Shown here piece by piece: positions 1,233 to 50,717 of a DNA stretch of 50,717 nucleotides. The stretch is from NCBI GenBank assembly GCA_022710935.1, contig JAKLFY010000046.1:1-50717 (forward strand). Direction: 5' to 3'. This DNA is from Verrucomicrobiota bacterium. Its GTDB lineage: Bacteria; Verrucomicrobiota; Verrucomicrobiia; Limisphaerales; J093. The translations under genes were made by a program, and so were the position numbers. The notes below the pieces were generated by a model that did not search any database, was not told the DNA's origin, and was given only the letters and a program-made list of their open reading frames with translations. Numbering within the stretch: the first letter of the stretch is position 1; the number at the start of each line of letters is the position of its first letter.

Positions 1233-1407
1233 GGGGTGTTGCGACTACGATTACGATTACGACCGATCCCCCCGATCTCCGATTGCCTCACGCTGCCGCA
1301 CCGGCGCTCCGACGCACTGACGCACCGGCTACCGACGCACCGGCTACCGGCTACCGACGCACCGACGCACCGACCCCCTATCTCCGAACTCCGAACTCCG
1401 ATCTCCC
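1233..1407 (-). repeat. left inverted-repeat flank of the dehydrogenase gene
   Basis: Runs GGGGTGTTGCG, TTACGA hexamers, CCCCGATCTCCGATTGCC, CACGCTGCCGCACC, then many CGACGCACCGGCTAC words, then TCCGAACTCCGATCTCCC directly up to the ATG. The same sequence in reverse complement follows the gene at 2716-2861. The last 20 bases before the ATG are pyrimidine-rich and contain no Shine-Dalgarno. Confidence 0.8.
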
Positions 1408-2715
1408 ATGCCCTCTCCCTCTGACACCCGCGCAATCGCCGTTGTTGGCCTCGGTTACGTCGGTCTGCCGCTCTCTCTCCAGTTCGCCCGATCCGGGGCG
1501 CACGTGCTCGGACTCGATATCGATTCTTCCAAGGTCGAGGCGATCCAGCAGGGACGGAGCTACATCAAGCACATCGGTTCGGACGCCATCCTCGAGCAGG
1601 TCCGGGCCGGCAGATTCACCGCCTCGACCGATTTTTCGCGGGTGAAAGAGGTGTCCGCGGTGATCATTTGTGTGCCGACCCCACTGAACAAGAACCGCGA
1701 GCCGGACATTTCGTACATTCTCAAGACAGGCGAGGCTGTTGCCCCCCACCTCTCGAAGGGCGCCCTCTTGGTTCTCGAATCGACCACTTACCCCGGGACA
1801 ACGGACGAAGACCTGCGCGCGGTGATCGAGAAGGGATCCGGGTTGAAGGCCGGGACAGACTTTCATCTTGCGTTCTCGCCCGAGCGCGAGGATCCCGGCA
1901 ACCCGAAAAGCGTTGTCCGCGACATCCCCAAAGTCGTCGGCGGGTACACCCCGGCCTGTCTGAAACGCGCGGTCGCTCTCTACAGCCAGGCGATCAAGAC
2001 CGTGGTGCCGGTCTCGTCCTGTCGGGCCGCCGAGGCGACGAAGCTGCTCGAGAACATCTTTCGCAGCGTCAATATCGCCTTGGTCAACGAGCTCAAGGTC
2101 GTCTACGGCGCCATGGGCATCGATGTCTGGGAGGTCATCAATGCCGCCCGGACCAAGCCGTTCGGTTACATGCCCTTCTATCCCGGGCCGGGCCTGGGCG
2201 GACATTGCATCCCGATCGACCCCTTTTATCTGACCTGGAAGGCGCGCGAGTACGGACAGCACACGCGGTTCATCGAACTGGCCGGCGAGATCAACACCGC
2301 GATGCCCGAATTCGTGGTGAACCGGCTTGCAGAGGCTTTGAACGCCCAGCGCAAGCCGCTCAACGGCAGCCGGGTCCTGGTCCTTGGACTGGCGTATAAG
2401 CCGGACGTCGACGATGACCGCGAATCGCCGAGCTACATCCTGCTCGAGCTGCTCAAGAAACGCGGCGCCGAAGTCGCCTATCACGATCCGCATGTGCCGG
2501 TCATCCGACCGACTCGCGAACATAGCCACTGGGCCGGGACGGAGTCCGTCCCCTGGTCGGCTTCGAGCATCGGGGGATTCGATGTCGTCCTGATCGCGAC
2601 CGACCACAAGGCTCTCGATTACCGGCAGTTGGCCGAGTGGGCGCCCTGCATCGTCGATACCCGCAACGCCATGTCCGGTATCCCCGCCAGGCCCGGCCAG
2701 GTCTGGAAAGCGTGA
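1408..2715 (+). CDS. nucleotide sugar dehydrogenase (UDP-GlcNAc/UDP-Glc 6-dehydrogenase family, WbpA-like)
   Basis: A 435-residue NAD-dependent enzyme that oxidises C6 of a UDP-sugar to the uronic acid in two steps. The N-terminal Rossmann motif is GLGYVG at residues 14-19. The substrate domain has CVPTPLNKNREPD and the ESTTYPGTT and FSPEREDPGN motifs. The catalytic cysteine is C267 in GLGGHCIPIDPFYL. The C-terminal UDP-binding domain includes LGLAYKPDVDDDRESPS. The motifs favour the WbpA-type UDP-N-acetylhexosamine dehydrogenases over classical UDP-glucose dehydrogenase, but substrate cannot be read safely. With the epimerase at 3389 it would supply two uronic acids. The leader is pure repeat with no ribosome binding site, and the gene is bracketed by inverted repeats. 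Confidence 0.93.
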   Translation: MPSPSDTRAIAVVGLGYVGLPLSLQFARSGAHVLGLDIDSSKVEAIQQGRSYIKHIGSDAILEQVRAGRFTASTDFSRVKEVSAVIICVPTPLNKNREPDISYILKTGEAVAPHLSKGALLVLESTTYPGTTDEDLRAVIEKGSGLKAGTDFHLAFSPEREDPGNPKSVVRDIPKVVGGYTPACLKRAVALYSQAIKTVVPVSSCRAAEATKLLENIFRSVNIALVNELKVVYGAMGIDVWEVINAARTKPFGYMPFYPGPGLGGHCIPIDPFYLTWKAREYGQHTRFIELAGEINTAMPEFVVNRLAEALNAQRKPLNGSRVLVLGLAYKPDVDDDRESPSYILLELLKKRGAEVAYHDPHVPVIRPTREHSHWAGTESVPWSASSIGGFDVVLIATDHKALDYRQLAEWAPCIVDTRNAMSGIPARPGQVWKA

Positions 2716-2861
2716 TGGGAGATCGGAGATCGGAGATCGGAGTTGGGAGATGGGGAGGCTGGTGCGTCGGTGCGTCGGTAGTCGGTGCGTCGGTGCGGCA
2801 GCGTGAGGCAATCGGAGATCGGGGGCATCGATCCTAATCGTAATCCTAATCGCAACACCCC
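2716..2861 (+). repeat. right inverted-repeat flank of the dehydrogenase gene
   Basis: Begins immediately after the stop codon: GGAGATCGGAGATCGGAGTT, GGTGCGTC words, GCAGCGTGAGGCAATCGGAG, GGGGGCATCGATCC, then TAATCG hexamers and GCAACACCCC. In reverse complement this reproduces 1233-1407 in the same order, so the gene lies inside a roughly 200-bp inverted repeat. Confidence 0.8.
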
Positions 2862-4399: not shown

Positions 4400-4905
4400 G
4401 GGGGAGGGGCACGGGGGCATGCGGGAAGGGGTAAGGGGCGGAGATCGGAGATGGGAGATGGGAGATCGGAGATGGGGGGAGCCGGTAGCCGGTGCGACGG
4501 TGCGTCAGTAGGCGGTAAACAGTGCGTCGGTGGGCGGTGCGTCAGTACGTCAGTAGGCGGGGAGTTACAGAAGATCGCAATGGAACGTATGGTACAGGGC
4601 AGCTCGGATTTTAGGTCCTTTGCGTCCCTTTGCGTCCTTCTGTTGATTAATGTCTTCTCTGTGTGCTCTGCGCCTCTGTGGTGAATCCTGTTCGAGCATA
4701 GTCACCGGCCCGAATTGAACCACAGAGACACAGAGAACACAGAGGAAAGCACGGGTGTCTGGGGTTCAACAGAAGCTCGCAAAGGAACGCAAAGAGTTAA
4801 ACAGGGGCTCGCGCAGTTCCCAGATGGTCCATCGGAATTCGCCGATCAGAGCTGGCAGATCAGGAGGTGACTCTTGCTCTTCCTGCTCTTAATCCTAATC
4901 GCCTT
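4400..4905. repeat. mosaic repeat region after the epimerase gene
   Basis: Ordered modules on the + strand: GGTAAGGGG words, GGAGATCGGAGATGGGAGAT words (from 4440), GGTGCGTC/GTCAGTAGGCGG words, CAGAAGATCGCAATGGAAC, its inverted partner TTTGCGTCCTTCTGTTG (near 4630), CTCTGTGTGCTCTGCGCCTC and its inverted partner AACCACAGAGACACAGAG (from 4718), then CAGAAGCTCGCAAAGGAAC. The same module order is found at 31880-32425. No gene is supported. Confidence 0.75.
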
Positions 4906-5677: not shown

Positions 5678-5713
5678 CGCACTGACGCACTGACGTACCG
5701 ACGCACTGACACC

Positions 5714-6640: not shown

Positions 6641-6813
6641 CACTGACGTACTGGCGCACCGGCTACTGACGCACTGACGTACCGACGCACCGACGCACCG
6701 CCTCCCGATCTCCGATCTCCGAACGCCCAAAGCCGGCTGCAAGCCGGCGCTCCGACCCCGATCTCCCATCTCCGAACTCCGAACTTCGAACGCCCATCTC
6801 CGATCTCCGTCGA
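6641..6813 (-). repeat. C/T-rich word leader of gmd with GCCGGC hairpin
   Basis: CGACGCACC words, GATCTCCGATCTCCGAAC, an AAGCCGGCTGCAAGCCGGCG hairpin word (about 6729-6753), then further CTCCGAACTCCGAACTTCG words up to the ATG. The hairpin word recurs at 9625 and, inverted, at about 32026. No Shine-Dalgarno. Confidence 0.7.
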
Positions 6814-7824
6814 ATGAAAAGGGCTCTGATCACAGGCATCACCGGCCAGGACGGATCTTACCTTGCCGAGTTCCTGCTCGCCAAAGGCTACGAGGTCCAT
6901 GGCATCATCCGCCGCGCCAGCACTTTCAACACCGGCCGCCTCGACTCGATCTATTCGGATCCGCACGTCGCGCGGACGCATCTGCACCTTCATTACGGCG
7001 ATCTGAGCGATGCCAGCGCGTTGGCTCGTCTGATCGGCCAGGTTCAGCCGGAAGAGATCTACAACCTCGCCGCCCAAAGCCACGTCCGCGTCAGTTTCGA
7101 CAGTCCCGAGTACACGACCGACATCACCGCAACGGGCGCCGTGCGCCTGCTCGAAGCGATTCGCGAGACCGGGATCCGCCCGCGCTTCTACCAGGCGTCA
7201 TCGAGTGAGATGTACGGCAAGGTCATCGAGACCCCCCAGAGCGAGACGACCCCGTTTTATCCGCGCAGCCCGTACGGATGCGCCAAGGTGTACGCCTACT
7301 GGATTACGGTGAATTACCGCGAGTCGTACGGACTCCATGCCAGCAACGGCATCCTGTTCAATCACGAGTCGCCGCGCCGGGGCGAGACGTTTGTCACCCG
7401 CAAGATCACTCGAGCGGTCGCGCACATCCAGGCCGGGATCCAGGACAAGCTCTATTTGGGCAACCTCGACGCCAAACGCGATTGGGGCTACGCGAAGGAA
7501 TACGTCGAGGCCATGTGGCTGATGGTTCAGCAGGATCAACCAGGCGATTATGTCATCGCCACCGGCGAGACACACTCGGTCCGCGAGTTCCTCGAAGCCG
7601 CGTTTGGCTCTGTCGGACTCGATTGGCAGCGGTATGTCGAGACCGATCCACGGTACTGCCGTCCGGCTGAGGTCGATCTCCTGGTCGGGGACGCCGGCAA
7701 GGCGCAGCGCCAGCTCGGTTGGACACCCCGGACGCGATTCAAGGACCTGGTCCGGCTGATGGTCGATGCGGACATCGCGCTGCTGAAGGCTCATCGCGAG
7801 GGGAAGATCCCCGTAACACAGTAA
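6814..7824 (+). CDS. gmd: GDP-mannose 4,6-dehydratase
   Basis: A 336-residue short-chain dehydrogenase that converts GDP-D-mannose to GDP-4-keto-6-deoxy-D-mannose in the cytoplasm, using bound NADP. The nucleotide motif GITGQDGSY is at residues 8-16, the active-site strand QASSSEMYG at 127-135 (the GMD-specific Ser/Thr-Glu) and the Y154/K158 pair in [28 protein letters not shown] and [16 protein letters not shown] are hallmark GMD sequences. The product feeds fcl at 9670, giving GDP-L-fucose. The start follows a repeat leader lacking a ribosome binding site. Confidence 0.96.
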
Positions 7825-8407
7825 CGTGCAACGAGCACGGCTGGTTAGAAGTTGAGCGTTGAGCGTTGAGCGTTTCATGCTGTGCGGAGAGTGAAGCGCG
7901 AAATACGCGAAACACGCGAACACAGCGAAACGCCGTACACAGGGGAATGCATGGGGGGGAGGGGATTACAGAAGATCGCAAAGAGACGCAAAGAAGATCT
8001 GGTGAACATGAAGTCCAGTCCTTTGCGGTTCTTTGCGCCCTTCTGTGAGGAATGACCCGACAGGAACCTGTTCAATAGAAGATCGCAAAGGAACGCAAAG
8101 AAGGGGGAGCGTGAATTCCGGTCATCTGTCTTGCTTTGGACCCTCTGTTGAATTGGCTCCGATTTCATCGTTTCTCGCGGTTCACCTTGCCCGTCATCAT
8201 TTCTTTGGCTCTTAATCGTAATCGTAATCGTAATCGTAATCCCTTCTTGTGACTTCCTGTCACTGTGTATGGTGTTTGGCTCGAGATTACGATTACGAAC
8301 AGGAACCGCAGCCTGTGTCCTCAGTGACGCACTGGCGCACCGACGCACCGCCCCCCCCATCTCCGAACTCCGAACTCCGATCTCCGAACTCCCATTTCCG
8401 AATCCCG
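7825..8407. repeat. repeat mosaic between gmd and the AlbA-like gene
   Basis: GTTGAGCGTTGAGCGTTGAG words (from 7852), CGCGAAATACGCGAAACACG words, CAGAAGATCGCAAAGAGACG with inverted partner CTTTGCGGTTCTTTGCGCCC (7969-8047), another AGAAGATCGCAAAGGAACGC, then TAATCG hexamers (8213-8242), CGAGATTACGATTACG (8281-8298), and the C/T-rich leader ACGCACTGG... CTCCGAACTCCGATCTCC (8323-8407). No gene is supported. Confidence 0.7.
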
Positions 8408-9532
8408 ATGTCCGTGATTCCGCCGGCTGAAAACCAACATGTCGAGTTCAAGCTCGAAGCGGTGAGCGCGACCGAATTGGCCGAGGAACTCGTCGCCTTC
8501 GCGAATGCCGACGGGGGCGAGATCTGGCTCGGAGTCGACGACGCCGGCCAGCCGGTGGGGTTATCGCGGTCGTACGAGCAGGATGTGATGAACATCAGTC
8601 GCAGCGGCTGCATTCCGCCCATCCGACCGACCTACGAGACCGTGCAATCCGGCGGCATGACGGTCGCTCGCATCGGGGTGCCCAAGGGACCAGATCGCCC
8701 GTACTACACCTCGCGCAACCGGTATTACATTCGCGTTGGCTCGACCAAGCGAATTGCGTCGCGCGAGGAACTCATGCGGCTTTTTCAGGCCGCTGGTCTT
8801 TTTCATTACGATCTCGTCGAGCTTTCGCAGGTCAGCCTCAACCAGCTCAACCTGTCGGCCGTCGCGGATTACTTTGCGCGTTACGAATTGGCCTTTGCGC
8901 GTGAGAGCGAAGCAGAACGCGAACGCTTGATGCGCGCCACCGATATCCTGGGAGATCAGGGGCGCCCCACGGTGGGCGGGCTCCTGATATTCGGCATTTC
9001 ACCCGAGCGGACCCTGCCGCAAGCGGGTATTCAGTTCGCCCACTTCCAGGGGACTCAACCAGGCGCTGACCTGATCGACAAGCGGTTCTTTGGCGGCAGC
9101 CTGCCTGACCAGGTCCAAAACGCTTTGGCAGGCCTCAAGGCCAACCTGCAATCGCCTTCTCGCATCGAGGGGGCCCGGCGGATCGAGCGGGCCGGGTACC
9201 CCGACCCGGTTTTTCGCGAACTGCTGGTCAACGCGTGCGTGCATCGGAACTACAGCATCACCGGATCGCAGATCCGCGTGCTGTTGTTCGCCGACCGGTG
9301 CGAGTTTGCCAGCCCCGGACGCCTGCCCAACACGGTAACTGTCGAGAAGTTGGCGGTTGGCACCAGCTTTGCCCGCAACCCGCTTTTGGTCCGGTTGATG
9401 GAGAACCTGGGATATATGGACCGTCTGGGCCGTGGATTGCCAATGGTCGTCCAAGCCGCGAGCCGCCTCGGTCTGGGTGTCGACTTCGATGATTCGGGCG
9501 ACGCCTTTCGCGTCGTCCTTCGTCTGCCGTGA
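8408..9532 (+). CDS. AlbA_2 (Schlafen AAA_4) domain protein with C-terminal HATPase
   Basis: A 374-residue protein; the ATG at 8408 was chosen because the in-frame sequence upstream is repeat. Residues about 5-130 form an AlbA_2/Schlafen-type domain (QHVEFKLEA, then FANADGGEIWLGVDD at 31-45, then RYYIRVGSTKRIASREEL). The C-terminal part matches the ATP-dependent helicase RecG-like HATPase_c_4 domain (FRELLVNACVHRNYS, FASPGRLPNTVTVEKL, MENLGYMDRLGRGLPMV). Such proteins are annotated as putative transcriptional regulators or accessory defence-type proteins; the biochemical role is unsettled. It is not a sugar enzyme and sits, with the toxin-antitoxin pair, as a non-biosynthetic insert among repeat-flanked genes. 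Confidence 0.85.
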   Translation: MSVIPPAENQHVEFKLEAVSATELAEELVAFANADGGEIWLGVDDAGQPVGLSRSYEQDVMNISRSGCIPPIRPTYETVQSGGMTVARIGVPKGPDRPYYTSRNRYYIRVGSTKRIASREELMRLFQAAGLFHYDLVELSQVSLNQLNLSAVADYFARYELAFARESEAERERLMRATDILGDQGRPTVGGLLIFGISPERTLPQAGIQFAHFQGTQPGADLIDKRFFGGSLPDQVQNALAGLKANLQSPSRIEGARRIERAGYPDPVFRELLVNACVHRNYSITGSQIRVLLFADRCEFASPGRLPNTVTVEKLAVGTSFARNPLLVRLMENLGYMDRLGRGLPMVVQAASRLGLGVDFDDSGDAFRVVLRLP

Positions 9533-9669
9533 CCGACGCACCGGCCACCGACCCACCGGCCACCGTCCACCGACGCACCGACGTACCGCCTCCCGATCTC
9601 CGATCTCCCATCTCCAATCTCCCTAAGCCGGCTGCAAGCCGGCGCTCCGACGCACCGCCCGATCCCAAC
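9533..9669 (-). repeat. C/T-rich word leader of fcl with GCCGGC hairpin
   Basis: Starts right at the previous stop codon with CGACGCACCGGCCACC words, continues with CCCGATCTCCGATCTCCC words and the AAGCCGGCTGCAAGCCGGCG hairpin word at about 9625-9648, and ends 1 base before the ATG. No ribosome binding site. Confidence 0.7.
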
Positions 9670-10620
9670 ATGACCCCCCTACCCAAATCCGCCCGCATCT
9701 ACGTCGCCGGTCACCAGGGACTCGTCGGCAGCGCCATCTGGCGCGAGTTCGACCGCCAGGGCTATACGACCCTCATCGGACGCACCCGCGACGAACTCGA
9801 TCTCAGGGAGCCAACATCCGTCCGCCGCTTCTTCGACGAACAACGCCCCGAGTATGTGATTCTCGCCGCCGCCCGGGTCGGCGGCATCCTGGCCAACGAT
9901 ACCCAGCCCGTTCCCTTTCTCCTCGAGAACCTCCAGATCCAAAACAACGTCATCTCCGAATCGCACCGGGCCGGTGTCCGCAAGCTCCTTTTCCTGGGCA
10001 GTTCCTGCATCTATCCCAAGCTCGCACCCCAGCCGATCCGCGAGGAGCATCTGCTGACCGGCCCGCTCGAACCGACCAACCAATGGTACGCCATCGCCAA
10101 GATCGCCGGGATCAAGCTCTGCCAGGCCTATCGACGCCAGTACGGATCCGATTACATCTGCGCGATGCCGACCAATCTGTACGGGCCAAACGACAATTAC
10201 GACCCGCGGAATTCTCATGTCCTGCCCGCCCTGATCCGAAGATTCCACGAAGCCAAATCGACCGGGGTGCACGAGGTGGTCTGTTGGGGGACCGGATCGC
10301 CCCGGCGCGAGTTCCTCTACGTCGACGATCTGGCCCGCGCCTGTCTCTTCCTGCTCGAACGGTACAGCGACGAGGAGATTATCAACGTCGGCTCGGGCGC
10401 CGACCTGCCAATCCGTGACCTGGCCGACCTGGTCGCGCGGGTCGTGGGGTTCGAGGGCGCGATTGTCTGGGACGAGTCGAAACCGGACGGCACACCGCGC
10501 AAACTCATGGACAGTGCGCGCATCTTCGGGATGGGTTGGCGGCCCGAGGTCGGACTCGAAGAGGGGATCCGCCGCGCCTACGCGGATTTCATGGGGATGA
10601 CAGTCACCGTCCCGAAATGA
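9670..10620 (+). CDS. fcl: GDP-L-fucose synthase
   Basis: A 316-residue bifunctional epimerase/reductase that turns GDP-4-keto-6-deoxy-D-mannose into GDP-L-fucose with NADPH. The nucleotide motif GHQGLVG is at residues 14-20. The active-site strand is FLGSSCIYPK, and the YxxxK pair is in NQWYAIAKIAG. The sequence PTNLYGPNDNYDPRNSHVLPA is characteristic of the family. The ATG at 9670 was chosen because it gives the family length and places the Rossmann strand near the N terminus; the upstream in-frame extension is repeat sequence. Works with gmd at 6814. Confidence 0.96.
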   Translation: MTPLPKSARIYVAGHQGLVGSAIWREFDRQGYTTLIGRTRDELDLREPTSVRRFFDEQRPEYVILAAARVGGILANDTQPVPFLLENLQIQNNVISESHRAGVRKLLFLGSSCIYPKLAPQPIREEHLLTGPLEPTNQWYAIAKIAGIKLCQAYRRQYGSDYICAMPTNLYGPNDNYDPRNSHVLPALIRRFHEAKSTGVHEVVCWGTGSPRREFLYVDDLARACLFLLERYSDEEIINVGSGADLPIRDLADLVARVVGFEGAIVWDESKPDGTPRKLMDSARIFGMGWRPEVGLEEGIRRAYADFMGMTVTVPK

Positions 10621-30775: not shown

Positions 30776-30853
30776 CTCGTTGGGCCATTTTCTGCCATTC
30801 CGGAATTCGTGGTGCGGCCATGCCGTCATGCCACTTGTGAAGTTTCGACAACC

Positions 30854-31984
30854 ATGAAGACCCCTCGGGCACTGTTCTCCAAAAAGACCCTGCTCATCAC
30901 CGGCGGCACCGGCAGTTTTGGAAACGCGGTGCTTCGCCGGTTTCTGAAAAGCGACATCGGCCAGATCCGCATCTTTTCGCGCGACGAAAAGAAGCAGGAT
31001 GACATGCGCCACGAGTACCGGGATGCTCGCCTCAAGTTCTACATCGGCGACGTCAGGAACATCGACAGCCTCGAAGAGGCGCTGGTAGGGGTCGATTTCG
31101 TGTTTCACGCGGCCGCCTTGAAGCAGGTCCCGTCGTGCGAGTTTTACCCGGTCGAGGCGATCCGGACAAACTCGCTCGGAACCGACAATGTGTTGCAGGC
31201 GTCGGAGCGCAACGGCGTCAAGCGGGTCGTGGTGTTGAGCACGGACAAGGCGGCCTATCCCATCAATGCCATGGGTATGTCCAAGGCATTGAGCGAGAAA
31301 GTCATGGTCGCGCGTTCTCGGGTCGCGGGCGAGCGCGGCCTGGTCTTTTGCGGCACCCGGTACGGCAACGTGATGGCTTCGCGCGGGTCGGTGATCCCGT
31401 TGTTCCTTGACCAGATCGAGGCGGGCGAGCCGATCACCGTGACGGACCTCGACATGACGCGGTTCATGATGACCCTCGACGACGCCGTCGATCTGGTCCT
31501 GTTCGCCTTCGAGCATGGGCGTCCGGGCGATCTCTTTGTCCAGAAGGCCCCCGCCGCGACGATCGCGACCCTTGCCGAGGCGCTCAAGCGGTTGATGGGC
31601 GCGCCTGATCACCCGGTGAAGGTGATCGGGACACGGCATGGCGAGAAACTCTACGAAACGCTGCTGACACGCGAGGAACGGGCCCGAGCCGAGGACCTGG
31701 GCAACTACTTCCGGGTGCCAGCCGACGGCCGCGACCTGAACTACAATCTCTATTTCACCGAAGGCATGTCGGTCTCGGGCGGGCTCGAGGACTATCACTC
31801 GCACAACACAACCCGGCTCGATGTGGACGGCATGATCGAGCTGCTGCTCAAGCTTGATGAAGTGCGAGAAGCGATGGGGAGGCGGGGAGCAGGGAGCAGG
31901 GAGGGAAGGGGTAAGGGCACGGGGGCAAGGGCGAGGCGCGGAGGGGCAAGCGGCAAGGGCAGAAGGGCAAGCGGTAAGGGGTAA
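30854..31984 (+). CDS. fnlA: UDP-GlcNAc 4,6-dehydratase (5-inverting) / 3-epimerase, FnlA/CapE/WbjB type
   Basis: First enzyme of UDP-L-FucNAc synthesis, acting on UDP-GlcNAc in the cytoplasm. Start ATG 30854 places GGTGSFG at residues 17-23. Family hallmarks are FSRDEKKQDDMRHEY, AALKQVPSCEFYPVEAIRTN and the active site STDKAAYPINAMGMSK, where methionine (M140) replaces the usual tyrosine before K144. The family is about 345 residues; this protein has 376 because from about residue 342 the reading frame runs into GGGAGCAGGGAGCAGG and GGCAAGCGG repeat words, giving a Gly/Arg/Ala tail until a chance stop. Followed by fnlB and fnlC. Confidence 0.94.
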   Translation: MKTPRALFSKKTLLITGGTGSFGNAVLRRFLKSDIGQIRIFSRDEKKQDDMRHEYRDARLKFYIGDVRNIDSLEEALVGVDFVFHAAALKQVPSCEFYPVEAIRTNSLGTDNVLQASERNGVKRVVVLSTDKAAYPINAMGMSKALSEKVMVARSRVAGERGLVFCGTRYGNVMASRGSVIPLFLDQIEAGEPITVTDLDMTRFMMTLDDAVDLVLFAFEHGRPGDLFVQKAPAATIATLAEALKRLMGAPDHPVKVIGTRHGEKLYETLLTREERARAEDLGNYFRVPADGRDLNYNLYFTEGMSVSGGLEDYHSHNTTRLDVDGMIELLLKLDEVREAMGRRGAGSREGRGKGTGARARRGGASGKGRRASGKG

Positions 31985-32476
31985 GGGGCGGAGATGGGAG
32001 ATGGGAGATGGGAGATCGGGCACTGGAGCGCCGGCTTGCAGCCGGCTTAAGATCTCCGGAGATCGGAGATCGAAGATCAGTGCGTCGGTACGCCAGTACG
32101 TCGGTGGGCGGTGCCTCGGTAGGCGGTAGCCGGTGAGCGCGGACTCACAGCAGATCGCAAAGGAACGTAAAGTGCAGGCCAGCCTGGAATTTGGGACTTT
32201 GCGTTTCTTTGCGTCCTTCTGTGAATGAAGGTCTTCTCTGTGTGCTCTGCGCCTCTGTGGTAAATCCCATTCGATGACTGTCACCGCCCCGAATTGAACC
32301 ACAGAGACACAGAGGACACAGAGGAAGGCATGTGCGGCGGAGGTTCAACAGAAGATCGCAAAGGAACGCAAAGAACTGAAGAGTCGAAGCCTGGCCCTTT
32401 GCGTTTCTTTGCGCCCTTCTGTGAGGATGGTCTTCCGGTCACCATTTGTATTGCACACCTGTTTCGATCCAATTAG
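31877..32476 (+). repeat. word mosaic running from the fnlA tail into the intergenic gap
   Basis: Order: GGGAGCAGGGAGCAGG, GGGGTAAGGGCACGGGGGCA and GGCAAGCGGTAAGGGG words (inside the fnlA frame to 31984), GGAGATGGGAGATGGGAG, inverted GAGCGCCGGCTTGCAGCCGG hairpin (about 32029), GGTACGCCAGTACGTCGG words, CAGCAGATCGCAAAGGAAC with partner CTTTGCGTTTCTTTGCGTCC, TTCTCTGTGTGCTCTGCGCC with partner AACCACAGAGACACAGAGG, then AGAAGATCGCAAAGGAACGC with partner CTTTGCGTTTCTTTGCGCCC. It repeats the order seen at 4400-4800. Confidence 0.8.
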
Positions 32477-32612: not shown

Positions 32613-34052
32613 ATGAGCACCAAGACCATCCTTGTGACAGGCGCAAACGGCTTTGTCGGGCGCAATCTGTCCGCTCATCTTGCCCGCCGCGAGGATCTGA
32701 CCCTGTTCCGCGTCGACGTCGATTCAGCGCCTGACGAGTTGGATCGGGCCATTTCCTCGGCTGAGATCATCTTTCACCTGGCCGGTGTCAACCGTCCCGA
32801 GGACCCCGGCGATTTCAAGTCGGGCAACACGGGCTTCACCGAGGACTTGTGCGGCAAGATTGTCAAAGCGGGCCGCAAACCGCTTCTCGTCCTGTCGTCT
32901 TCAATCCAGGCGGCATTGGACAATCCTTACGGCGTCAGCAAGCGCGGCGCCGAGGATGCGGTCAAGGACTGGGCACAGCGGGGAGGGGGAAGGGCAATCA
33001 TCTTCCGACTGAAGAACGTGTTTGGGAAGTGGTGCAGGCCGAACTACAACTCGGTGACAGCCACGTTCTGCCACAACATCGCCCATGACCTGCCGATCAC
33101 GATCAGCGATCCGGACAAGGAACTCGATCTGGTGTACATCGACGATGTTGTCGAGGCGTTTGGGAAGGTGATCGAGCAGGGAGCCGGAGCGGGAAGCGGG
33201 GAGCGGGGAGAAGACAGAGGACAGAGGACAGAGGGCAGAGGGCAGAGGACAGGGGATGCGGCAGGTGAACGGCTGGATTCCAGCCGCCCTTCCCCCTTGC
33301 CCCCTACCGCTTCCCCCTTACCGCCTGGCCCTTGCCCCTTACCGCTCGGCCCCTGGGAATACCGCGAGGTCGAGAGGTCTTACCGGATCACTCTGGGCGG
33401 GTTGGCGGCGCGGATCCGGTCGTTTCGCGAGATACGGCGCACCCTGGTGCTGCCTGATCTGGGCGATCCGCTGAATCGGTGTCTGTACGCCACCTATCTG
33501 AGCTACTTGGACGGACCGGACTTTGCATACCGGCTCGATCAGAAGACCGATCCGCGCGGCAGTCTGGCCGAGTTCGTGAAGTCGGCGGCGGCCGGTCAGA
33601 TCTTCGTCTCGCGGACCAAGCCCGGCATCACCCGGGGCAACCACTATCATCATACGAAGACCGAGAAGTTCCTGGTGCTCGAAGGCGAGGCCATTATCCG
33701 GTTTCGCAGGGTGGACAGCAGGGAGCAGGGAGCAGGGAGCAGGGAGCAGGGAGCAGAGATTTGCGGGCGATATCGCACTGAGCACCCTGGATCATCGACC
33801 TCCCAAGCGGTCTCCACACTCCCGGAGCTCCCTGCTCCGGGCTCCGGGCTCCGGGCTCCCCGCTCCGAGCTCCCTGCTGCTGTGATTGAGCATCGGGTGA
33901 GTGGACGCGACTTTGTGGTTGTGGATATCCCGCCCGGTTACACGCACTCGATCGAGAACGTCGGTAGCGGCGAGTTGGTCACGCTGTTCTGGGCCAGCGA
34001 GCCGTTCAATCCCCAGCAGCCGGATACGTATGGGATGGAAGTGGGGCGGTGA
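32613..34052 (+). CDS. fnlB: FnlB/WbjC/CapF-type epimerase-reductase with two in-frame repeat insertions
   Basis: Bifunctional protein: an N-terminal short-chain dehydrogenase (GANGFVG at residues 10-16, PYGVSKRGAED at 105-115) and a C-terminal cupin (PGITRGNHYHHTKTEKFLVL, IPPGYTHSIENVGSGELVTL). It epimerises and reduces the FnlA product to UDP-2-acetamido-2,6-dideoxy-L-talose. The protein has 479 residues where the family has about 370. The excess is two low-complexity segments, residues about 189-247 and 370-423, encoded by the same word repeats that fill the intergenic gaps. Each keeps the frame. One lies between the two domains and the other in a cupin loop, so the enzyme could still fold, which is inference. 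Confidence 0.92.
   Translation: MSTKTILVTGANGFVGRNLSAHLARREDLTLFRVDVDSAPDELDRAISSAEIIFHLAGVNRPEDPGDFKSGNTGFTEDLCGKIVKAGRKPLLVLSSSIQAALDNPYGVSKRGAEDAVKDWAQRGGGRAIIFRLKNVFGKWCRPNYNSVTATFCHNIAHDLPITISDPDKELDLVYIDDVVEAFGKVIEQGAGAGSGERGEDRGQRTEGRGQRTGDAAGERLDSSRPSPLPPTASPLPPGPCPLPLGPWEYREVERSYRITLGGLAARIRSFREIRRTLVLPDLGDPLNRCLYATYLSYLDGPDFAYRLDQKTDPRGSLAEFVKSAAAGQIFVSRTKPGITRGNHYHHTKTEKFLVLEGEAIIRFRRVDSREQGAGSREQGAEICGRYRTEHPGSSTSQAVSTLPELPAPGSGLRAPRSELPAAVIEHRVSGRDFVVVDIPPGYTHSIENVGSGELVTLFWASEPFNPQQPDTYGMEVGR
33177..33353 (+). repeat. in-frame repeat insertion 1 in fnlB
   Basis: Left part is G/A-rich (GAGCGGGAAGCGGGGAGC, then ACAGAGGACAGAGGACAGAG), right part is the complementary C/T-rich type (CCCTTGCCCCCTACCGC, CCCCTTACCGCTCGGCC). 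About 59 codons, no stop. Lies between VVEAFGKVIEQ and WEYREVERSYRITLG. Confidence 0.85.
33720..33881 (+). repeat. in-frame repeat insertion 2 in fnlB
   Basis: Left arm (GGGAGCAGGGAGCAGGGAGC) and right arm (CTCCCTGCTCCGGGCTCCGG) are inverted relative to each other around a core with GCGGGCGATATCGCACTGAG. About 54 codons, no stop, between EAIIRFRRVDS and AVIEHRVSGRDFVVVD. Confidence 0.85.
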
Positions 34053-34088
34053 GCAGAGAGCAGGGAGCAGAGAGCAGGGAGTTTCGGA

Positions 34089-34460
34089 ATGAGTCACGAC
34101 ACAAAACAGTTTCGTTTTGAGGACCTTGAGATCTGGCAAAGGGGCGCAGCAATCAGCACCAGACTGTTCGAGCTGGCCGATGGTCTGGAGCAGGCCCACC
34201 GATTCCGGTTTGCCGAGCAGCTCCGAGCTGCAACCCTGAGCATCACGAACAACATCGCTGAGGGTTCCGGGAGCGATTCGAATGCCGAGTTTGCTAACTT
34301 CTTGAAGTTCTCGCGACGCTCGGTCTTCGAGGTAGCAAACATACTGATGATTCTGTCACAAGGACGGTATCTGGATCCGGCTCAAGTCTTGCCGTTTCTG
34401 CAAGAACTGGTCGAGCAGAGCCGAATGATCCTTGCCTTCATGCGAAGTCTGCGCTCATAA
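34089..34460 (+). CDS. four helix bundle protein (S23-like)
   Basis: A 123-residue protein of the four-helix-bundle family first known from intervening sequences of 23S rRNA genes (FEDLEIWQRG near the start, RFAEQLRAATLSITNNIAEG and FLKFSRRSVFEVANILMI). Function is unknown; homologues are often found inside polysaccharide and sugar-nucleotide clusters. It stands between fnlB and fnlC and interrupts an otherwise conserved gene order. The gaps on both sides (34053-34085 and 34473-34509) are GAGCAGG words, + type before it and complementary after it, so the gene looks like a repeat-flanked cassette. Confidence 0.88.
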   Translation: MSHDTKQFRFEDLEIWQRGAAISTRLFELADGLEQAHRFRFAEQLRAATLSITNNIAEGSGSDSNAEFANFLKFSRRSVFEVANILMILSQGRYLDPAQVLPFLQELVEQSRMILAFMRSLRS

Positions 34461-34472
34461 GAGCCGCGCTGC

Positions 34473-34509
34473 TGGCACTCCCTGCTCCCTGCTCCCTGCT
34501 CCCTGCTCT
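34473..34509 (-). repeat. CCCTGCT-word leader of fnlC
   Basis: CTCCCTGCTCCCTGCTCCCT words run to within 3 bases of the fnlC ATG. They are the complement of the GAGCAGG words after the fnlB stop. No Shine-Dalgarno. Confidence 0.75.
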
Positions 34510-34512
34510 GAC

Positions 34513-35751
34513 ATGAAAGTACTAACCGTCGTCGGGACCAGGCCCGAGATCATCCGCCTCTCGCGCGTGATCGCAAAGCTGGACCAGTACACGGACCATG
34601 TCCTCGTCCATACAGGCCAGAACTACGACTACGAACTGAACCAGATCTTCTTCGAGGATCTCGAGATCCGGAAGCCGGATCACTTTCTCGATGCCGCCGG
34701 CAAGAACGCCGCCGAAACGGTCGGGGCGATCATCGCGCGTGCGGATGCCGTGCTCGAAAAGGAGAAGCCCGACGCCTTTCTCGTCCTGGGCGACACGAAT
34801 AGCTGCCTCGCCGCATACCCGGCCAAACGACGTAAGATCCCCGTCTTTCACATGGAAGCCGGGAACCGCTGCTTCGACCAGCGGGTTCCGGAAGAGATCA
34901 ACCGGAAGATCGTCGATCACCTCGCCGACATCAACCTGCCTTACTCGACCATCTCGCGCGAATACCTGCTGCGCGAGGGGTTCCCGCCCGACCGGGTCAT
35001 CAAGACCGGAAGCCCGATGTTCGAGGTGCTACACCATTACCTGCCCAAGATCGAACGGTCGGATGTGATCGAGAGGCTGGGGCTGCGCTCAGGGAGCAAG
35101 GAGCAAGGAGCAAGGAGCAGGGAGCAAGGAGCAGGGAGCGAAGCGGCAAGCGGGAAGGGGGAAGCGGGAAAGGCAGAGGGCAGAGGACAGAGGACAGAGG
35201 ACAGGGAGGGGTATTTTTTGGTGAGTTGTCATAGGGAGGAGAATGTCGATTCACCCAGGCAGTTGGCCAAGTTGGTCGAAGTTCTGAATGGACTGACGCG
35301 CGAGTTCGGGCTGCGCGTGATTATGTCGACACATCCGCGGACCCGGAAACGCCTGGACGAGTGCGGGCTGAAACTCGACAGCCGGGTCGAGTTGCTGAAA
35401 CCGCTTTGCCTGACCGACTATGTGCGTCTCGAGCTTGGGGCCCGGGCGACTTTGTCGGATAGCGGCACGATCACGGAGGAATCGTCCATTCTCAACTTCC
35501 CCGCCCTCAACATTCGCGAGGCGCATGAGCGTCCGGAAGGGATGGAAGAGGGATCGGTGATGATGGTGGGGCTGGAATGGCAGGGGATACGACGAGCGCT
35601 CAGGGTGCTTGCAGGACAGTCGCGGCACCAAGAGCGGACATTGCGCGTGGTGGTCGATTACGATGTGCCCAACGTCTCGGAGAAGGTGGTGAGGATTGTC
35701 CAGAGTTACACAAGCTATGTTCAAAGGCGGGTCTGGAGTATCGAGGAATGA
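34513..35751 (+). CDS. fnlC: UDP-N-acetylglucosamine 2-epimerase family, FnlC/WbjD/CapG type, with in-frame repeat insertion
   Basis: Last enzyme of the UDP-L-FucNAc pathway, a non-hydrolysing 2-epimerase. Motifs are VVGTRPEIIRLSRVI, VHTGQNYDYELNQIFFEDL, HMEAGNRCFDQRVPEEINRK, VSCHREENVDSP and LSDSGTITEESSI. ATG 34513 puts the first motif at residue 6. The protein has 412 residues; residues about 193-232 are low-complexity sequence encoded by GAGCAAGGAGCAAGG and AGAGGACAGAGG words. They are inserted exactly between VIERLGL and YFLVSCHREENV, where relatives join directly. Without it the length (372) matches the family. The frame is kept and active-site motifs are untouched. Confidence 0.93.
   Translation: MKVLTVVGTRPEIIRLSRVIAKLDQYTDHVLVHTGQNYDYELNQIFFEDLEIRKPDHFLDAAGKNAAETVGAIIARADAVLEKEKPDAFLVLGDTNSCLAAYPAKRRKIPVFHMEAGNRCFDQRVPEEINRKIVDHLADINLPYSTISREYLLREGFPPDRVIKTGSPMFEVLHHYLPKIERSDVIERLGLRSGSKEQGARSREQGAGSEAASGKGEAGKAEGRGQRTEDREGYFLVSCHREENVDSPRQLAKLVEVLNGLTREFGLRVIMSTHPRTRKRLDECGLKLDSRVELLKPLCLTDYVRLELGARATLSDSGTITEESSILNFPALNIREAHERPEGMEEGSVMMVGLEWQGIRRALRVLAGQSRHQERTLRVVVDYDVPNVSEKVVRIVQSYTSYVQRRVWSIEE
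35089..35208 (+). repeat. in-frame repeat insertion in fnlC
   Basis: AGCAAGGAGCAAGGAGCAAG words, GCGGCAAGCGGGAAGGGGG words and GCAGAGGACAGAGGACAGAG words in that order, on the coding strand. About 40 codons with no stop. Confidence 0.85.
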
Positions 35752-40115: not shown

Positions 40116-41480
40116 ATGATTCGACTTTCCCGTCGCATTCACCTTTCCATCCCGCATATGGGAAAGCGGGAGCTTGGCTATGTTCAAGACGCATTTGCGA
40201 GCAATTGGCTCTCCACCGTGGGCCCGAACTTGGTAGCCCTCGAGAGCCAGTTCGCAGGCTTGTGCGGACTACCCTGCGTTGCGTTGGGAAGCGGCACGGC
40301 AGGGATTCATCTGGGATTGAAGCTCCTCCGGATCGGCTGCGGAGACGAAGTGGTCACACCGACTCTTAGCTTCGCGGCAAGCTGCAATCCTGTCCGCTAT
40401 GAACAAGGCGTTCCCGTGTTCATCGATAGCGACCGCGCCACATGGAATCTGGATCCCAACTTGCTCGAGGATTTTCTCGCACGGCGGGCGCGGATTAATA
40501 GGCTGCCTAAGGCTGTGACTGTCGTTCACTTGTTCGGTCAGTCAGCCGATCTGGACCCTGTTTTGGAGATATGCGGTCGGTATGAGTTGCCTCTTCTCGA
40601 GGATGCGGCGGAAAGCCTTGGGGCACGGTACAAGGGCCGGCATCCGGGCACACTCGGAGCTGTGGGTGTGTTCTCGTTCAATGGCAACAAGATGATCACC
40701 GCGACGTCGGGTGGCATGTTAGTTTCAGGCCGCCCGAAGTGGGTGGAGAAGGCGCGGCATTGGAGCACCCAGGCGCGAGACACGGATCCGGAGGGCGTGA
40801 GTAACTACGTGCACTCGGAGGTAGGGTACAATTATCGGATGAGCAATGTGCTGGCAGGCATTGCTTTGGGGCAGCTCGAAGTTCTCGATCTGCGGGTCCA
40901 GCAGCGCCGCGCCGTGTTCGATCGATATTGCGAGGCCTTTGTTGACATCCCGGGGATCCAACCGCAGCCGGAGGCCGACTTCGGAGTTCGGAGATCGGAG
41001 ATGGGAGATGGGGGGGGCGGTGCGTCGGTGGAGCAGGGAGCAGGGAGCGGGGAGCGGGGAGCGGAGGGGCAAGAGGGAAGCGGGGGTAACGTTCAACGCT
41101 CAACGAACAACGCTCAACGTTCAACTTCCAACCATCAACCATCAACCATCAACCATCAACCTACCACAGGCAGCCTGCACACCCGCTGGCTGAGTTGTTT
41201 CCTCATCGACGAGTCGAAGTTCGGGATGTCGTCTTCGGACCTGATCCGTTTTCTCGATGCGGCGAACATCGAGTCGCGTCCGGTCTGGAAACCGATGCAC
41301 ACCCAACCGCTGTATCGGGGGTACGAATGTGTCGGGGGAGAAGTGGCGGCGGATCTGAACCGGCGGGGGATTTGCCTGCCCAGTTCGAGTTCGTTGAGCG
41401 AAGAGGATCAACAGTTCGTCATCGAACGGATTCGAGAGGCGCATACGAGAAGACTTGATAAAGACCAAACCACTAACTGA
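40116..41480 (+). CDS. EpsN/PglE-type DegT aminotransferase with in-frame repeat insertion
   Basis: PLP enzyme of the EpsN/PglE group, which aminates the C4 keto group of UDP-2-acetamido-4-keto-2,6-dideoxyglucose. Motifs: HLSIPHMGKRELGYVQDAF, VALGSGTAGIHLGLKLL, D163 in LLEDAAESLGARYKG and the Schiff-base K192 in FSFNGNKMITATSGG. The protein has 454 residues; residues about 289-354 are low-complexity repeat sequence inserted between QPEADFG and HTRWLSCFLIDESKFG. Without it the length (about 388) matches the group. Its natural substrate would come from the WbpM/CapD-like dehydratase at 46290 and the acyl step could be the adjacent GNAT (inference). Confidence 0.92.
   Translation: MIRLSRRIHLSIPHMGKRELGYVQDAFASNWLSTVGPNLVALESQFAGLCGLPCVALGSGTAGIHLGLKLLRIGCGDEVVTPTLSFAASCNPVRYEQGVPVFIDSDRATWNLDPNLLEDFLARRARINRLPKAVTVVHLFGQSADLDPVLEICGRYELPLLEDAAESLGARYKGRHPGTLGAVGVFSFNGNKMITATSGGMLVSGRPKWVEKARHWSTQARDTDPEGVSNYVHSEVGYNYRMSNVLAGIALGQLEVLDLRVQQRRAVFDRYCEAFVDIPGIQPQPEADFGVRRSEMGDGGGGASVEQGAGSGERGAEGQEGSGGNVQRSTNNAQRSTSNHQPSTINHQPTTGSLHTRWLSCFLIDESKFGMSSSDLIRFLDAANIESRPVWKPMHTQPLYRGYECVGGEVAADLNRRGICLPSSSSLSEEDQQFVIERIREAHTRRLDKDQTTN
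40980..41177 (+). repeat. in-frame composite repeat insertion in the EpsN/PglE-type gene
   Basis: Ordered words on the coding strand: GGAGATCGGAGATGGGAGAT, GGTGCGTCGGTG, GAGCAGGGAGCAGGGAGCGG, GGGGCAAGAGGGAAGCGGGG, AACGCTCAACG / AACGTTCAAC, and CCATCAACCATCAACCATCA. The same order from the GGTGCGTC word on is found after the exosortase gene at 50305-50445. The frame stays open for about 66 codons. Confidence 0.88.
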
Positions 41481-45916: not shown

Positions 45917-46289
45917 GCCCGATTTCATCGTTTCTCGCGGTTCACCTCGTCCGTGACGATCATCTCTTTGGTTACTCGTAATCGTAATCGTAATCGCTTC
46001 CCCTAACCCGGAAATCTCACCAGTGGGGCGGTCGCGGCATTCCTGACGGTCGGTGGGTGAGATTTCCGGGTCCTGTCACTTTGAATGGCGACTGGGTCGA
46101 GATTACGATTACGAGTAGGATTACGATTACGACCGGAGGCAGCGGTTTGTTTGCCCACTGTCGTACCGCCCACCGACGCACCGACGCACCGCCCACTGTC
46201 GTACCGCCCACCGACGCACTGGCTACCGACGCACTGGCTACCGACGCCCCCCCAAACTCCGATCTCCCATCTCCGAACCCCGATCTCCC
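45917..46289. repeat. repeat mosaic before the WbpM/CapD-like gene
   Basis: TAATCG hexamers (45978-45996), element C (46007-46070), GATTACGATTACGAGTAGG (46100-46130), then ACCGCCCACCGACGCACCG words and CTCCGATCTCCCATCTCCG words up to the ATG. The C/T-rich leader has no Shine-Dalgarno. Just before it, GTTTCTCGCGGTTCACCTCG matches the stretch at 8170-8190 (GTTTCTCGCGGTTCACCTTG), showing a longer shared segment. Confidence 0.75.
46007..46070 (-). repeat. palindromic element C, copy 3
   Basis: Perfect 15-bp arms CCCGGAAATCTCACC / GGTGAGATTTCCGGG around AGTGGGGCGGTCGCGGCATT. Same orientation as the copy at 25858. Confidence 0.85.
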
Positions 46290-48242
46290 ATGTCCCCTTC
46301 TGAATCTCCCGTGAACTCTCCTCTGCCGCCTTCGCCTCCACCGCCCGCCGCGGGTGGCAAACCCGGGTCGGCTGTCCCGAAGCAACGCAACGGGTTTTCG
46401 CTCGCCGAGAGGCGGATCATTCTCCTCATCCTCTACAGCGCCGGGCTGATGGCCTCTTACTGGCTTGCTTTCGAGTTCCGATTCGACTTCAAGGTGCCGG
46501 AGTCCTTCCAAGACGAATTGGGTCACGGCTGGTGGATGGCTCTTCCGCTCAAGCTGCTGGCGCTGGTGATCTTTGGCCAGTTCACGGGCTTGCTGAGCTT
46601 CTTCGGTCTGCCGGATCTGTGGCGGATCTTCTACGCGATGACCGCGGTGTCTCTGCTGCTCTTTCTAGCCAGCGTGACTGGGATTGTCGGATCGACACTT
46701 CCTCGTGGAGTCATTCTCATCGATTATGTCTTGTCGTTTGCGGCGATTGTTGGCATTCGCACCGGCTTTCGGGTGATCCGCGAGCGGTTGCGCGGACGCG
46801 GCGGGCCGCGCACATTGACCGCCAAGCGGGTTGGCATCATCGGGGCAGGGGATGTCGGCGCATCGCTGGCCAAGGACCTGCTCTCGAGACGCGGCCTCGG
46901 TCTGGTGCCGGTGGCCTTTTTCGACGACGACTCGCACAAGTGGAATTCGCAGGTCCATGGCATCCCGGTCCGGGGCCAGCCGGAGCGATTGCGGAGTCCG
47001 GATTTCCGAATGGATCTGGACGAGGTGATCATTGCGCTGCCCACGGCCAGCGCGGAGAGGATCCGCGAGATTGTCCGTCTCTTGCAGAGCCTGCACCTCA
47101 AGTTCGAGACGGTGCCGTCCTACGAACAACTCGCTACCGGCAAAGTGCGCGTCAGCCAGTTGCGTCCGGTCGAGATTCAAGACCTCTTGAATCGCGAGCC
47201 GGTCAAGCTCGACTCGGCCTCGATCCAGCAGCAGATCCAGGGGCGCACGGTGATGGTGACAGGCGCGGGCGGGAGCATCGGCAGCGAGCTCTGCCGCCAG
47301 ATCGTCGAGCGGGATCCGCGCGCCCTGCTCATGCTCGATCAGTCTGAGGTCCAGTTGTTCCCGATCGAGCAGGAACTGCTCGGGCAGGGTTACGGCGGCC
47401 AGGTCGTGCCCGTTGTTGCCGATATTCTCGATGAAGCCCGGATGCGATTCATCTTCTCGAGGTTCAAGCCGGAACTGATCTTTCACGCCGCTGCCCACAA
47501 ACACGTGCCGATGATGGAAAGCCAGCCGGGCGAGGCGCTCAAGAACAACTCGATCGGCACCGCCCGCCTCTCGAACCTGGCGCGCGAATACGGCGTGGAT
47601 CGCTTTGTCCTGATCTCGACCGACAAGGCCATTAACCCGACGAGTGTCATGGGGGCGTCGAAACGCCTGGCCGAGATCTATCTCCAGGCCCTCTCAGCCA
47701 GCGCCTCGAATGGCACGAAGTTCATGGCCGTCCGGTTCGGCAACGTGCTCGGGTCCTCGGGCAGTGTCATCCCCGTGTTCACCAAACAGATCGCCGCGGG
47801 CGGTCCGGTAACGGTGACCCATCCCGAGGTGAAGCGCTATTTCATGACCATCCCCGAGGCTGTGGGCCTGGTGCTCCAGTCGGCGTTCATGGGCGAAGGC
47901 GGCGAGATCTTCGTGCTCGATATGGGGCAGCCGGTCAAGATCGTCGATCTGGCGCGTCAGTTGATCGAACTCAACGGGCTCGAACCGGACGAGGACATCG
48001 AGATCCGGTTCACGGGGCTGCGTCCGGGCGAGAAACTGTTCGAGGAACTGTCGCATCGCACCGAGAACCACCAAACGACGAGCCATCCGAAAGTGATGCG
48101 TTTTGTGAGCCAGCCGCGGACGCTCGACGAGGTCCAGGCCGAGTTCGCGGCGCTCGAACGGCAGCTCGACAACACCGAGCGCAACCAGCTCAAACAGCGC
48201 ATCAAACAGCTCGTGCCCGAGTATCAGCCGTATCTGGTGTGA
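46290..48242 (+). CDS. WbpM/CapD/PglF-type nucleoside-diphosphate-sugar 4,6-dehydratase
   Basis: A 650-residue membrane-anchored UDP-GlcNAc 4,6-dehydratase. A proline-rich N terminus is followed by four hydrophobic segments (residues about 45-165), a CoA-binding-like Rossmann domain (KRVGIIGAGDVGASLAKDLL) and the catalytic domain (VMVTGAGGSIGSELCRQIVE, AAAHKHVPMMESQPGEAL, STDKAINPTSVMGASKRLAE with Met replacing Tyr, and GSSGSVIPVFTKQIAAGGP). The product, a UDP-4-keto-6-deoxy-HexNAc, is the substrate for the EpsN/PglE-like aminotransferase at 40116. The proline-rich tail follows a repeat leader directly, so a later start is possible. Confidence 0.94.
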   Translation: MSPSESPVNSPLPPSPPPPAAGGKPGSAVPKQRNGFSLAERRIILLILYSAGLMASYWLAFEFRFDFKVPESFQDELGHGWWMALPLKLLALVIFGQFTGLLSFFGLPDLWRIFYAMTAVSLLLFLASVTGIVGSTLPRGVILIDYVLSFAAIVGIRTGFRVIRERLRGRGGPRTLTAKRVGIIGAGDVGASLAKDLLSRRGLGLVPVAFFDDDSHKWNSQVHGIPVRGQPERLRSPDFRMDLDEVIIALPTASAERIREIVRLLQSLHLKFETVPSYEQLATGKVRVSQLRPVEIQDLLNREPVKLDSASIQQQIQGRTVMVTGAGGSIGSELCRQIVERDPRALLMLDQSEVQLFPIEQELLGQGYGGQVVPVVADILDEARMRFIFSRFKPELIFHAAAHKHVPMMESQPGEALKNNSIGTARLSNLAREYGVDRFVLISTDKAINPTSVMGASKRLAEIYLQALSASASNGTKFMAVRFGNVLGSSGSVIPVFTKQIAAGGPVTVTHPEVKRYFMTIPEAVGLVLQSAFMGEGGEIFVLDMGQPVKIVDLARQLIELNGLEPDEDIEIRFTGLRPGEKLFEELSHRTENHQTTSHPKVMRFVSQPRTLDEVQAEFAALERQLDNTERNQLKQRIKQLVPEYQPYLV

Positions 48243-48381
48243 GATCGGAGATGGGAGATCGGAGATCGGAGATCGGAGATCGGTGCGTCGGTGCGTCGGT
48301 AGCCGGTGCGTCGGTGCGTCGGTGGCCGGTGGAACAGCGACAGGAGTCTGCGAATTCTTAATCGTAATCGTAATCGTAATC
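48243..48381 (+). repeat. G/A-rich word run after the WbpM/CapD-like gene
   Basis: Starts at the stop codon: GATCGGAGATGGGAGATCGG words, GGTGCGTCGGTGCGTCGGT words, GGTGGCCGG, then TAATCG hexamers at 48360-48381. Same order as 2716-2861. The remaining bases to 48518 are ordinary. Confidence 0.8.
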
Positions 48382-50304: not shown

Positions 50305-50717
50305 TCGAGGCACGGGCGGTGCGCCGGTAGCCGGTGCGTCGGTGCGTCGGTGGAGCAGGGGGCAGGGAGCAGGGAGGCAAGCGGCAAGCGGGGGCAACGC
50401 TCAACGCTCAACGTTCAACTTCCAACCATCAACTATCGACCATCAGCCAATTGATGACTGTCACCGTCCCGGATTGAACCACAGAGACAGAGCACGCGGA
50501 GAGCACCGCATCCAAAGAGCCGCGGATGAAACACGGATGGCACGGATAAGCCCCGGAAGTTACGGATTGTTCTTCGCGGAGCGGGTCAGCGCGGACTTAC
50601 GTCCACGGCTGCACCCCGTCCGTAGCCGCCGTCGTGAGACGGCGCTGGTCATCATCCTCCGCGGAGCGGGTCAGCGCGGACTTATCCCGCGGCGGCGGGA
50701 CGGCTACGCGGCTTCCG
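50305..50717 (+). repeat. composite word repeat and module array at the right edge
   Basis: Order: GGTGCGCCGG/GGTGCGTCGG words, GAGCAGGGGGCAGGGAGCAG, GGCAAGCGGCAAGCGGGGGC, AACGCTCAACGCTCAACG, CCAACCATCAACTATCGACC, then ATTGAACCACAGAGACAGAG (50475 on) and CGGATGAAACACGGATGGC. Two direct copies of CGCGGAGCGGGTCAGCGCGG lie at 50575 and 50660, 85 bases apart, beside GC-rich palindromes. No gene is supported to the window end. Confidence 0.75.

Follow-up and report, generated by a model that had tools for sequence, protein, structure and literature searches.

Heptad arrays inside conserved enzyme genes of a Verrucomicrobiota family: a composite in-frame insert in a sugar aminotransferase

BIMEs are mosaics of ordered motifs, and an STRR, one of the short tandem heptanucleotides, is said to have been inserted into a functional RNA gene. 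Heptamer repeats are otherwise known from between genes, and by published accounts they avoid coding regions. The G-rich GGGNATC heptamers of Xanthomonas and Nostoc lie in the sense orientation just after or over stop codons and in the antisense orientation within 50 bp of start codons (PMC4692102), and the STRR of heterocystous cyanobacteria (Calothrix, Nostoc) are described as short tandem heptanucleotides with several words per genome (cited in PMC4692102). TAACTGA direct repeats of Beggiatoaceae, Cyanobacteria and Bacteroidetes are found at gene borders, with occasional reverse copies in reading frames, mostly at protein ends (PMC4679880). Rickettsia palindromic elements consist of one palindromic unit, 105-146 bp long, that carries terminal inverted repeats, and they occur in frame within many conserved genes (PMC2229807, PMC10969869).

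The window considered here, i.e., the whole stretch of DNA analysed (50,717 nucleotides), is contig C201 of G000, a 7.5-Mb metagenome assembly, and contains a polysaccharide biosynthesis cluster. Within this cluster a heptad array of composite structure is inserted in frame in a sugar aminotransferase gene. All genomes compared are assemblies from metagenomes; G012 belongs to the same genus as G000, and G000 was surveyed as sampled stretches.

Words, order and placement of the arrays

The composite is built of the words A (GGAGATC), B (GGTGCGTC), C (GGAGCAG), D (GGCAAGC), E (AACGTTC or AACGCTC) and F (AACCATC), all of them heptads except the octamer B; AGAGGAC is designated word P. A word-agnostic lag-7 detector revealed 18 arrays in the window and none in the controls, which were shuffled sequence and lags 9-11 and 13 (located features are collected in Table 1).

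Table 1. Host genes, composite blocks and other heptad arrays of the window
Feature	Position	Strand	Remarks
A-B array, antisense, over start codon of 1408-2715	1320..1416	-	
A-B array, sense, over stop codon of 1408-2715	2705..2820	+	
A-B array, sense, 35 bp 3' of gene 3389-4399	4434..4560	+	
A-B array, antisense, at start codon	5166..5278	-	
A array, antisense, before gene 6814-7824	6755..6809	-	
A-B array, antisense, before gene 8408-9532	8343..8401	-	
Array, antisense, before gene 9670-10620	9532..9623	-	
C-D-A array, over stop codon of 30809-31984	31886..32027	+	
In-frame array: C, D, P words, then C-rich heptads	33174..33352	+	CapF-like gene 32613-34052
Second in-frame array of CapF-like gene, cupin domain (GGGAGCA ... 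CTCCCTG)	33708..33878	+	absent in G010
C array, over stop codon of CapF-like gene	34043..34083	+	
C array, antisense, over start of 2-epimerase gene	34472..34515	-	
In-frame array C-D-P, UDP-GlcNAc 2-epimerase gene (34510-35751)	35082..35211	+	
DegT/DnrJ/EryC1 sugar aminotransferase gene (PglE/perosamine-synthase type), insert host	40116..41480	+	Pfam, structure match
In-frame composite heptad array, predicted disordered loop	40980..41166	+	junction of last strand of large domain and C-terminal domain
Block A, GGAGTTC/GGAGATC/GGAGATG heptads	40981..41013	+	unit 1 overlaps host codons TTC GGA
Block B, GGTGCGTC (8-mer)	41018..41030	+	
Block C, GGAGCAG/GGAGCGG heptads	41030..41064	+	
Block D, GGCAAGA/GGGAAGC	41065..41087	+	
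Block E, AACGTTC/AACGCTC heptads	41088..41128	+	
Block F, AACCATC heptads	41129..41162	+	
A-B array, antisense, before gene 46290-48242	46165..46296	-	
A-B array, sense, at stop codon of 46290-48242	48235..48331	+	G012, same place: A-B-C-E-F
Intergenic composite B-C-D-E-F, 3' of exosortase gene	50305..50445	+	block A missing

The sequence-only reading of this stretch, which preceded our analysis, had noticed that the insertion in the EpsN/PglE-type gene repeats the ordered words of the non-coding array behind the exosortase gene, and both indeed run B-C-D-E-F. In a search of its own genome the aminotransferase array matched 50332-50449 (1.2e-21), C182:3718-3834 (5.7e-31) and C182:19217-19339 (9.1e-30). 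In all stretches sampled from G000 and G012, transitions between neighbouring words follow the A-B-C-D-E-F order 54 times and reverse it six times. The same reading had the composite moving or copying as a unit, and this can be kept only in part. Copying in blocks stands: the word order is fixed at several sites, and one pair of intergenic composites is 90% identical over 170 bp, downstream non-repeat sequence included, so that composites do copy as blocks. However, the partial strings AB, CP and EF are more frequent than the full composite, so that the composite is not a fixed unit, nor are its ends fixed.

Read on the G-rich strand, each frame of the composites contains 0-2 stops. Three intergenic composites of G000 have zero stops in any frame of this strand, with 1-3 in every frame of the reverse strands; an insertion in this orientation, of a length divisible by three, is thus compatible with read-through. 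Words A and C are devoid of stops on either strand, and for A this agrees with its antisense array in UbiD (see below). Sense orientation had also been considered as obligatory for arrays within genes, and was dropped since UbiD carries the A word antisense.

The repertoire of words differs between genomes. GGAGATS arrays number 46 in G000 and 141 in G012 and at most 8 in the other genomes, GGACCAA arrays are confined to G001 and G003 among the genomes compared, and in 2.9 million viral contigs the A word was met in only 29 stretches. The Rfam search over the window, which covers known families only, gave no match. As to placement, the arrays per 100 kb in polysaccharide clusters versus other stretches amount to 35.5 versus 1.2 in G000, 21 versus 0 in G012, 16 versus 2.5 in G001, 10 versus 0 in G003, 5 versus 1.7 in G002, 0 versus 0 in G010, and 21 versus 9.8 in G011, whose random set includes contig C169, chosen for a hit, and without C169 yields 0 arrays in 71 kb. 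In genomes other than G000 the clusters had been picked by enzyme homologues, not by arrays. Of the window's arrays, six are sense and next to stop codons, and another six are antisense and next to start codons; this rule has one possible exception (5660-5713), and two arrays (483, 6617) are not assignable. The arrays form a dispersed repeat family peculiar to the genome; they gather in polysaccharide clusters and adjoin the termini of coding sequences, and in parts of the family the word order is conserved.

Several other sequences accompany the arrays. A REP-like palindrome, AGCCGGCTGCAAGCCGGCGCTCC, adjoins A-word arrays at about 6740, 9625 and 32040 of the window and also occurs within the G012 aminotransferase insert. 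Intergenic hexamer arrays GATTAC/TAATCG lie beside heptad arrays at 4944, 6394, 8213, 46101 and 48340, and a dispersed intergenic sequence, CACAGAGACACAGAGGA, with its relatives (149, 32300, 50480), is part of a longer repeat after the composite. A gene of a 23S rRNA-intervening-sequence (four-helix) protein (34089-34460) is located between the CapF-like and 2-epimerase genes and has arrays at both ends.

The aminotransferase and the other host enzymes

The open reading frame 40116-41480 is uninterrupted (454 aa) and belongs to the DegT/DnrJ/EryC1 family (Pfam, 6.4e-84); the solved proteins nearest to its product are 1o61, PglE 4ztc and 7b0m, and its fold is closest to 7b0m, PglE and perosamine synthase (TMt 0.94 of the model versus 7b0m). 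Alignment with homologues agrees with the earlier observation that the insert sits between two conserved blocks (...PQPEADFG and LHTRWLSCF) and leaves the reading frame open: the array has no stop codon in the frame of the gene. The 66 open codons counted earlier have to be corrected, as the surplus over homologues is about 63 codons (residues ~290-353 of the product, P0001), the remainder being a few host codons. The segment is absent from solved homologues and from most unrelated homologues. An example of an insert-derived peptide is SEMGDGGGGASVEQGAGSGER.

The structural model bears on the question, raised earlier, of whether the insert forms a surface loop. In the AlphaFold2 model (mean pLDDT 86), residues 292-349 have pLDDT of ~32 versus 88-97 in the flanks, on which grounds the insert is predicted to be a disordered loop within an intact fold. 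All residues invariant in 36 homologues are retained. Between G000 and G012 the insert has a dN/dS ratio of 0.98, as against 0.05 in the preceding and 0.155 in the following part of the gene; the insert is neutral at the protein level and the enzyme under purifying selection. Selection was tested most fully in this insert. Outside their arrays the 2-epimerase and CapF-like genes have dN/dS of 0.16 and 0.11, respectively, in the same comparison. The idea that the composite can enter genes without breaking them is thus borne out: the modelled fold is intact, the flanks are at dN/dS 0.05-0.16, and there is no decay.

At least four enzyme families carry in-frame arrays, namely the DegT aminotransferase, UDP-GlcNAc 2-epimerase, the CapF-like protein and UbiD. 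In G012 and G010 the slots of the CapF-like and 2-epimerase genes have another filling or are nearly empty: the first slot of the CapF-like gene is filled in G012 and short in G010, and the 2-epimerase slot contains other sequence in both. In the second array of the CapF-like gene, GGGAGCA heptads and, ~60 bp on, CTCCCTG heptads make an inverted pair, which could form a large hairpin. UbiD is a core enzyme and is not encoded in the polysaccharide cluster; its slot is the linker after the N-terminal domain. Antisense GGAGATC heptads occupy it in both G000 (L192:17592-17668, i.e., G000:C1:237592-237668) and G012, and most other genera have repeats of their own or low-complexity sequence there, genome-specific and in several cases non-heptad. 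Between G000 and G012 the dN/dS of UbiD is 0.12-0.13 outside the slot and 0.33 within it (over 45 codons), which shows some constraint on the slot. Two fusion proteins of relatives also have such arrays: a zinc-dehydrogenase/Gfo-Idh fusion of G011 (L248:12181-14676, contig C87) contains two in-frame heptad arrays of ~60 and 225 bp, and in a Gfo-Idh/hexapeptide-transferase fusion of G003 (L260:331-2139, contig C23) the interdomain linker is a heptad array.

Origin of the insert

The aminotransferase slot is filled in G012 with the same words as in G000, the array being longer there (111 residues). Of five other relatives, four have other heptad words (GGACCAA/GGACGAA in G001 and G003, GGAAGTCA in G002, GAGAGTC in L021) and one, G010, a short degenerate sequence; in the homologue alignment the slot is empty in G011, G013, G006 and G007. 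As different words stand at one alignment column, it is the slot that is conserved, not the sequence. The words in the slot are those of the host genome, and some protein loops seem to accept any repeat that is present in the genome. In most filled slots the first unit continues host codons (TTC GGA, TTT GGA, TAC GGG), pointing to microhomology as the site of entry.

We suppose, with somewhat more confidence than doubt, that the insertion is an STRR-like heptad array in a permissive surface loop, produced by homology-dependent exchange and slippage and surviving where it is tolerated. The copying of arrays between sites and the rewriting of their words would both be due to homology-dependent exchange (gene conversion or template switching, with other arrays and short host matches, e.g., TTCGGAG, as partners) together with slippage in steps of seven. 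Survival in genes would need a tolerant loop, a length that is a multiple of three and no stop in the inserted orientation. For this filter, which acts through the frame and the tolerance of the loop, the support is good. The copying mechanism we infer because hallmarks of an element are lacking; no copying event was caught, there being among the genomes compared no very close pair of which one has the site empty and the other filled. Two observations speak against the explanation as a whole, namely the constraint on the UbiD slot and the location of the recombination change points of the aminotransferase gene outside the array (see below).

Recent movement of the unit into this gene is not supported by our comparison: the in-gene array is 83% identical to the orthologous insert of G012 and only 73% to the 50.3-kb array, and therefore it was inherited and is older than the split of the two species (dS ~0.25-0.38 in their UbiD, CapD-like, CapF-like and 2-epimerase genes). 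The gene at 46290-48242 has arrays at both ends in G000 and G012, in the same places and with differing content; the sites thus outlast the words in them. The aminotransferase gene itself appears to be a recombined mosaic, its N-terminal two thirds having probably undergone replacement in either G000 or G012, as judged from pS of 0.74 in this part versus 0.37 after the slot. Third-position identity between G000 and G012 is 37% at 40116-41000 versus 76% in the last third. A similar break is seen between G001 and G003. The change points are at residue 250 in the former pair and 236 in the latter, 34-47 codons upstream of the slot, which rules out the array as the exact recombination junction; the array is thus near the breakpoint, not at it.

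The slot shared by several genera, the persistent places at the ends of 46290-48242 and an AACGCTC block kept at the 3' end of the L021 slot could also be understood if there had been a single insertion in the ancestor of the family, with the words later converted in place (concerted evolution) and losses in some genera. We regard this as possible but rather doubtful. The tree of the N-terminal part of the aminotransferase requires at least two changes of insert state (three in the best tree), so that a single ancient insertion must be supplemented with losses or horizontal gene replacement, and the non-heptad sequence in G010 and in several UbiD slots also speaks against it. It differs from exchange and slippage into a permissive loop in the number of entries only and is otherwise compatible with it.

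Movement of a non-autonomous transposable element (a MITE, or a REP/BIME mobilised by a Y1 transposase of RAYT type), inserted in frame like Rickettsia palindromic elements, seems unlikely. Y1/RAYT-type transposase genes (Y1_Tnp) are present in 13 of 14 family genomes, composite copies occur at several sites, REP-like palindromes lie beside some arrays, and Rickettsia provides a precedent for in-frame insertion (PMC2229807, PMC10969869). However, the composites at 41.0 and 50.3 kb present no visible target for these transposases: inverted repeats are absent from both, the folding is not unusual (z 0.68) and no stable fold is formed, no constant ends were found, as the ends vary (AB, CP, EF), and the same slot has other words in relatives. 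Comparison of filled with empty homologues, among which there is no recent empty site, did not reveal target duplication at the slot.

We also give little credence to a broader scheme, in which a repeat-writing process of the family places heptad sentences peculiar to each genome at the termini of coding sequences and in fixed permissive loops of enzymes, mostly in polysaccharide clusters, where genes and domains would be shuffled by exchange at the arrays. Even less probable is a templated array-writing enzyme, such as a telomerase-like reverse transcriptase, adding heptads at breaks, some of them in genes. The strict period of seven, the genome-specific words and the start of arrays on host microhomology such as TTCGGAG would agree with such an enzyme, but the fixed word order requires copying of whole composites, the Rfam search (known families only) found no template RNA, and G012, the genome richest in GGAGATS arrays, has no RVT_1 match. 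A reverse transcriptase as an obligatory partner of the arrays was rejected on the latter ground. Finally, mis-assembly or a decaying pseudogene is hardly credible: although repeats are liable to cause misassembly, and contigs C7 and C166 of G012 seem to terminate within or close to arrays of this kind, the flanks are under purifying selection with invariant residues retained, and independent assemblies (G012, G001, G002, G003, L021) agree on in-frame inserts at the same column, which refutes an artefact.

Comparison with known repeats

Like the GGGNATC repeats (PMC4692102), the arrays described here have a unit of seven, a G-rich strand, genome-wide copies and the same placing, sense at stop and antisense at start codons. 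Unlike them, their words (GGAGATC/G, GGAGCAG, GGCAAGC, AACGTTC, AACCATC) do not conform to the consensus GGGNATC or GGGGA(C/T)T, several words per array stand in a fixed order, and the arrays are concentrated in polysaccharide clusters and recur in frame in conserved enzymes. G-quadruplex formation is a further feature of the GGGNATC type. With STRR the present arrays share dispersed tandem heptanucleotides and several words per genome, and differ from them in phylum and in words; since even the genera of a single family differ in their repertoires, the words say nothing on descent from cyanobacterial STRR. TAACTGA repeats are likewise heptamers at gene borders, but consist of one word, have stops in the forward frames and lie before starts (PMC4679880), whereas here there are many words, mostly stop-free, and internal loops are occupied. 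As in the case of Rickettsia palindromic elements, a dispersed repeat stands in frame within conserved genes that are not destroyed (aminotransferase, 2-epimerase, CapF-like, UbiD); unlike those elements, it is a tandem array without inverted repeats, and the slot content changes between genera. The ordered mosaic of motifs (54 forward versus 6 reverse transitions) resembles REP/BIME, but a palindromic REP core is absent from the 41.0- and 50.3-kb composites, the REP-like palindromes being located only beside other arrays.

In the literature searched, which left most subscription papers outside its scope, there was no report of heptad arrays recurring in the same enzyme loops. One slot with many fillings and an empty control in related genera amounts to a set of natural replicate experiments, through which the spread of simple repeats without visible transposition machinery becomes testable, as does the birth of new disordered protein segments. 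For annotation it is of importance that such inserts resemble domains or assembly errors and are neither. Heptamer repeats, Rickettsia palindromic elements and BIMEs each depart from the present arrays in at least one of the points tested; what is new here is that heptamers recur inside conserved enzymes, in the same loops across genera, with the words swapped by genome.
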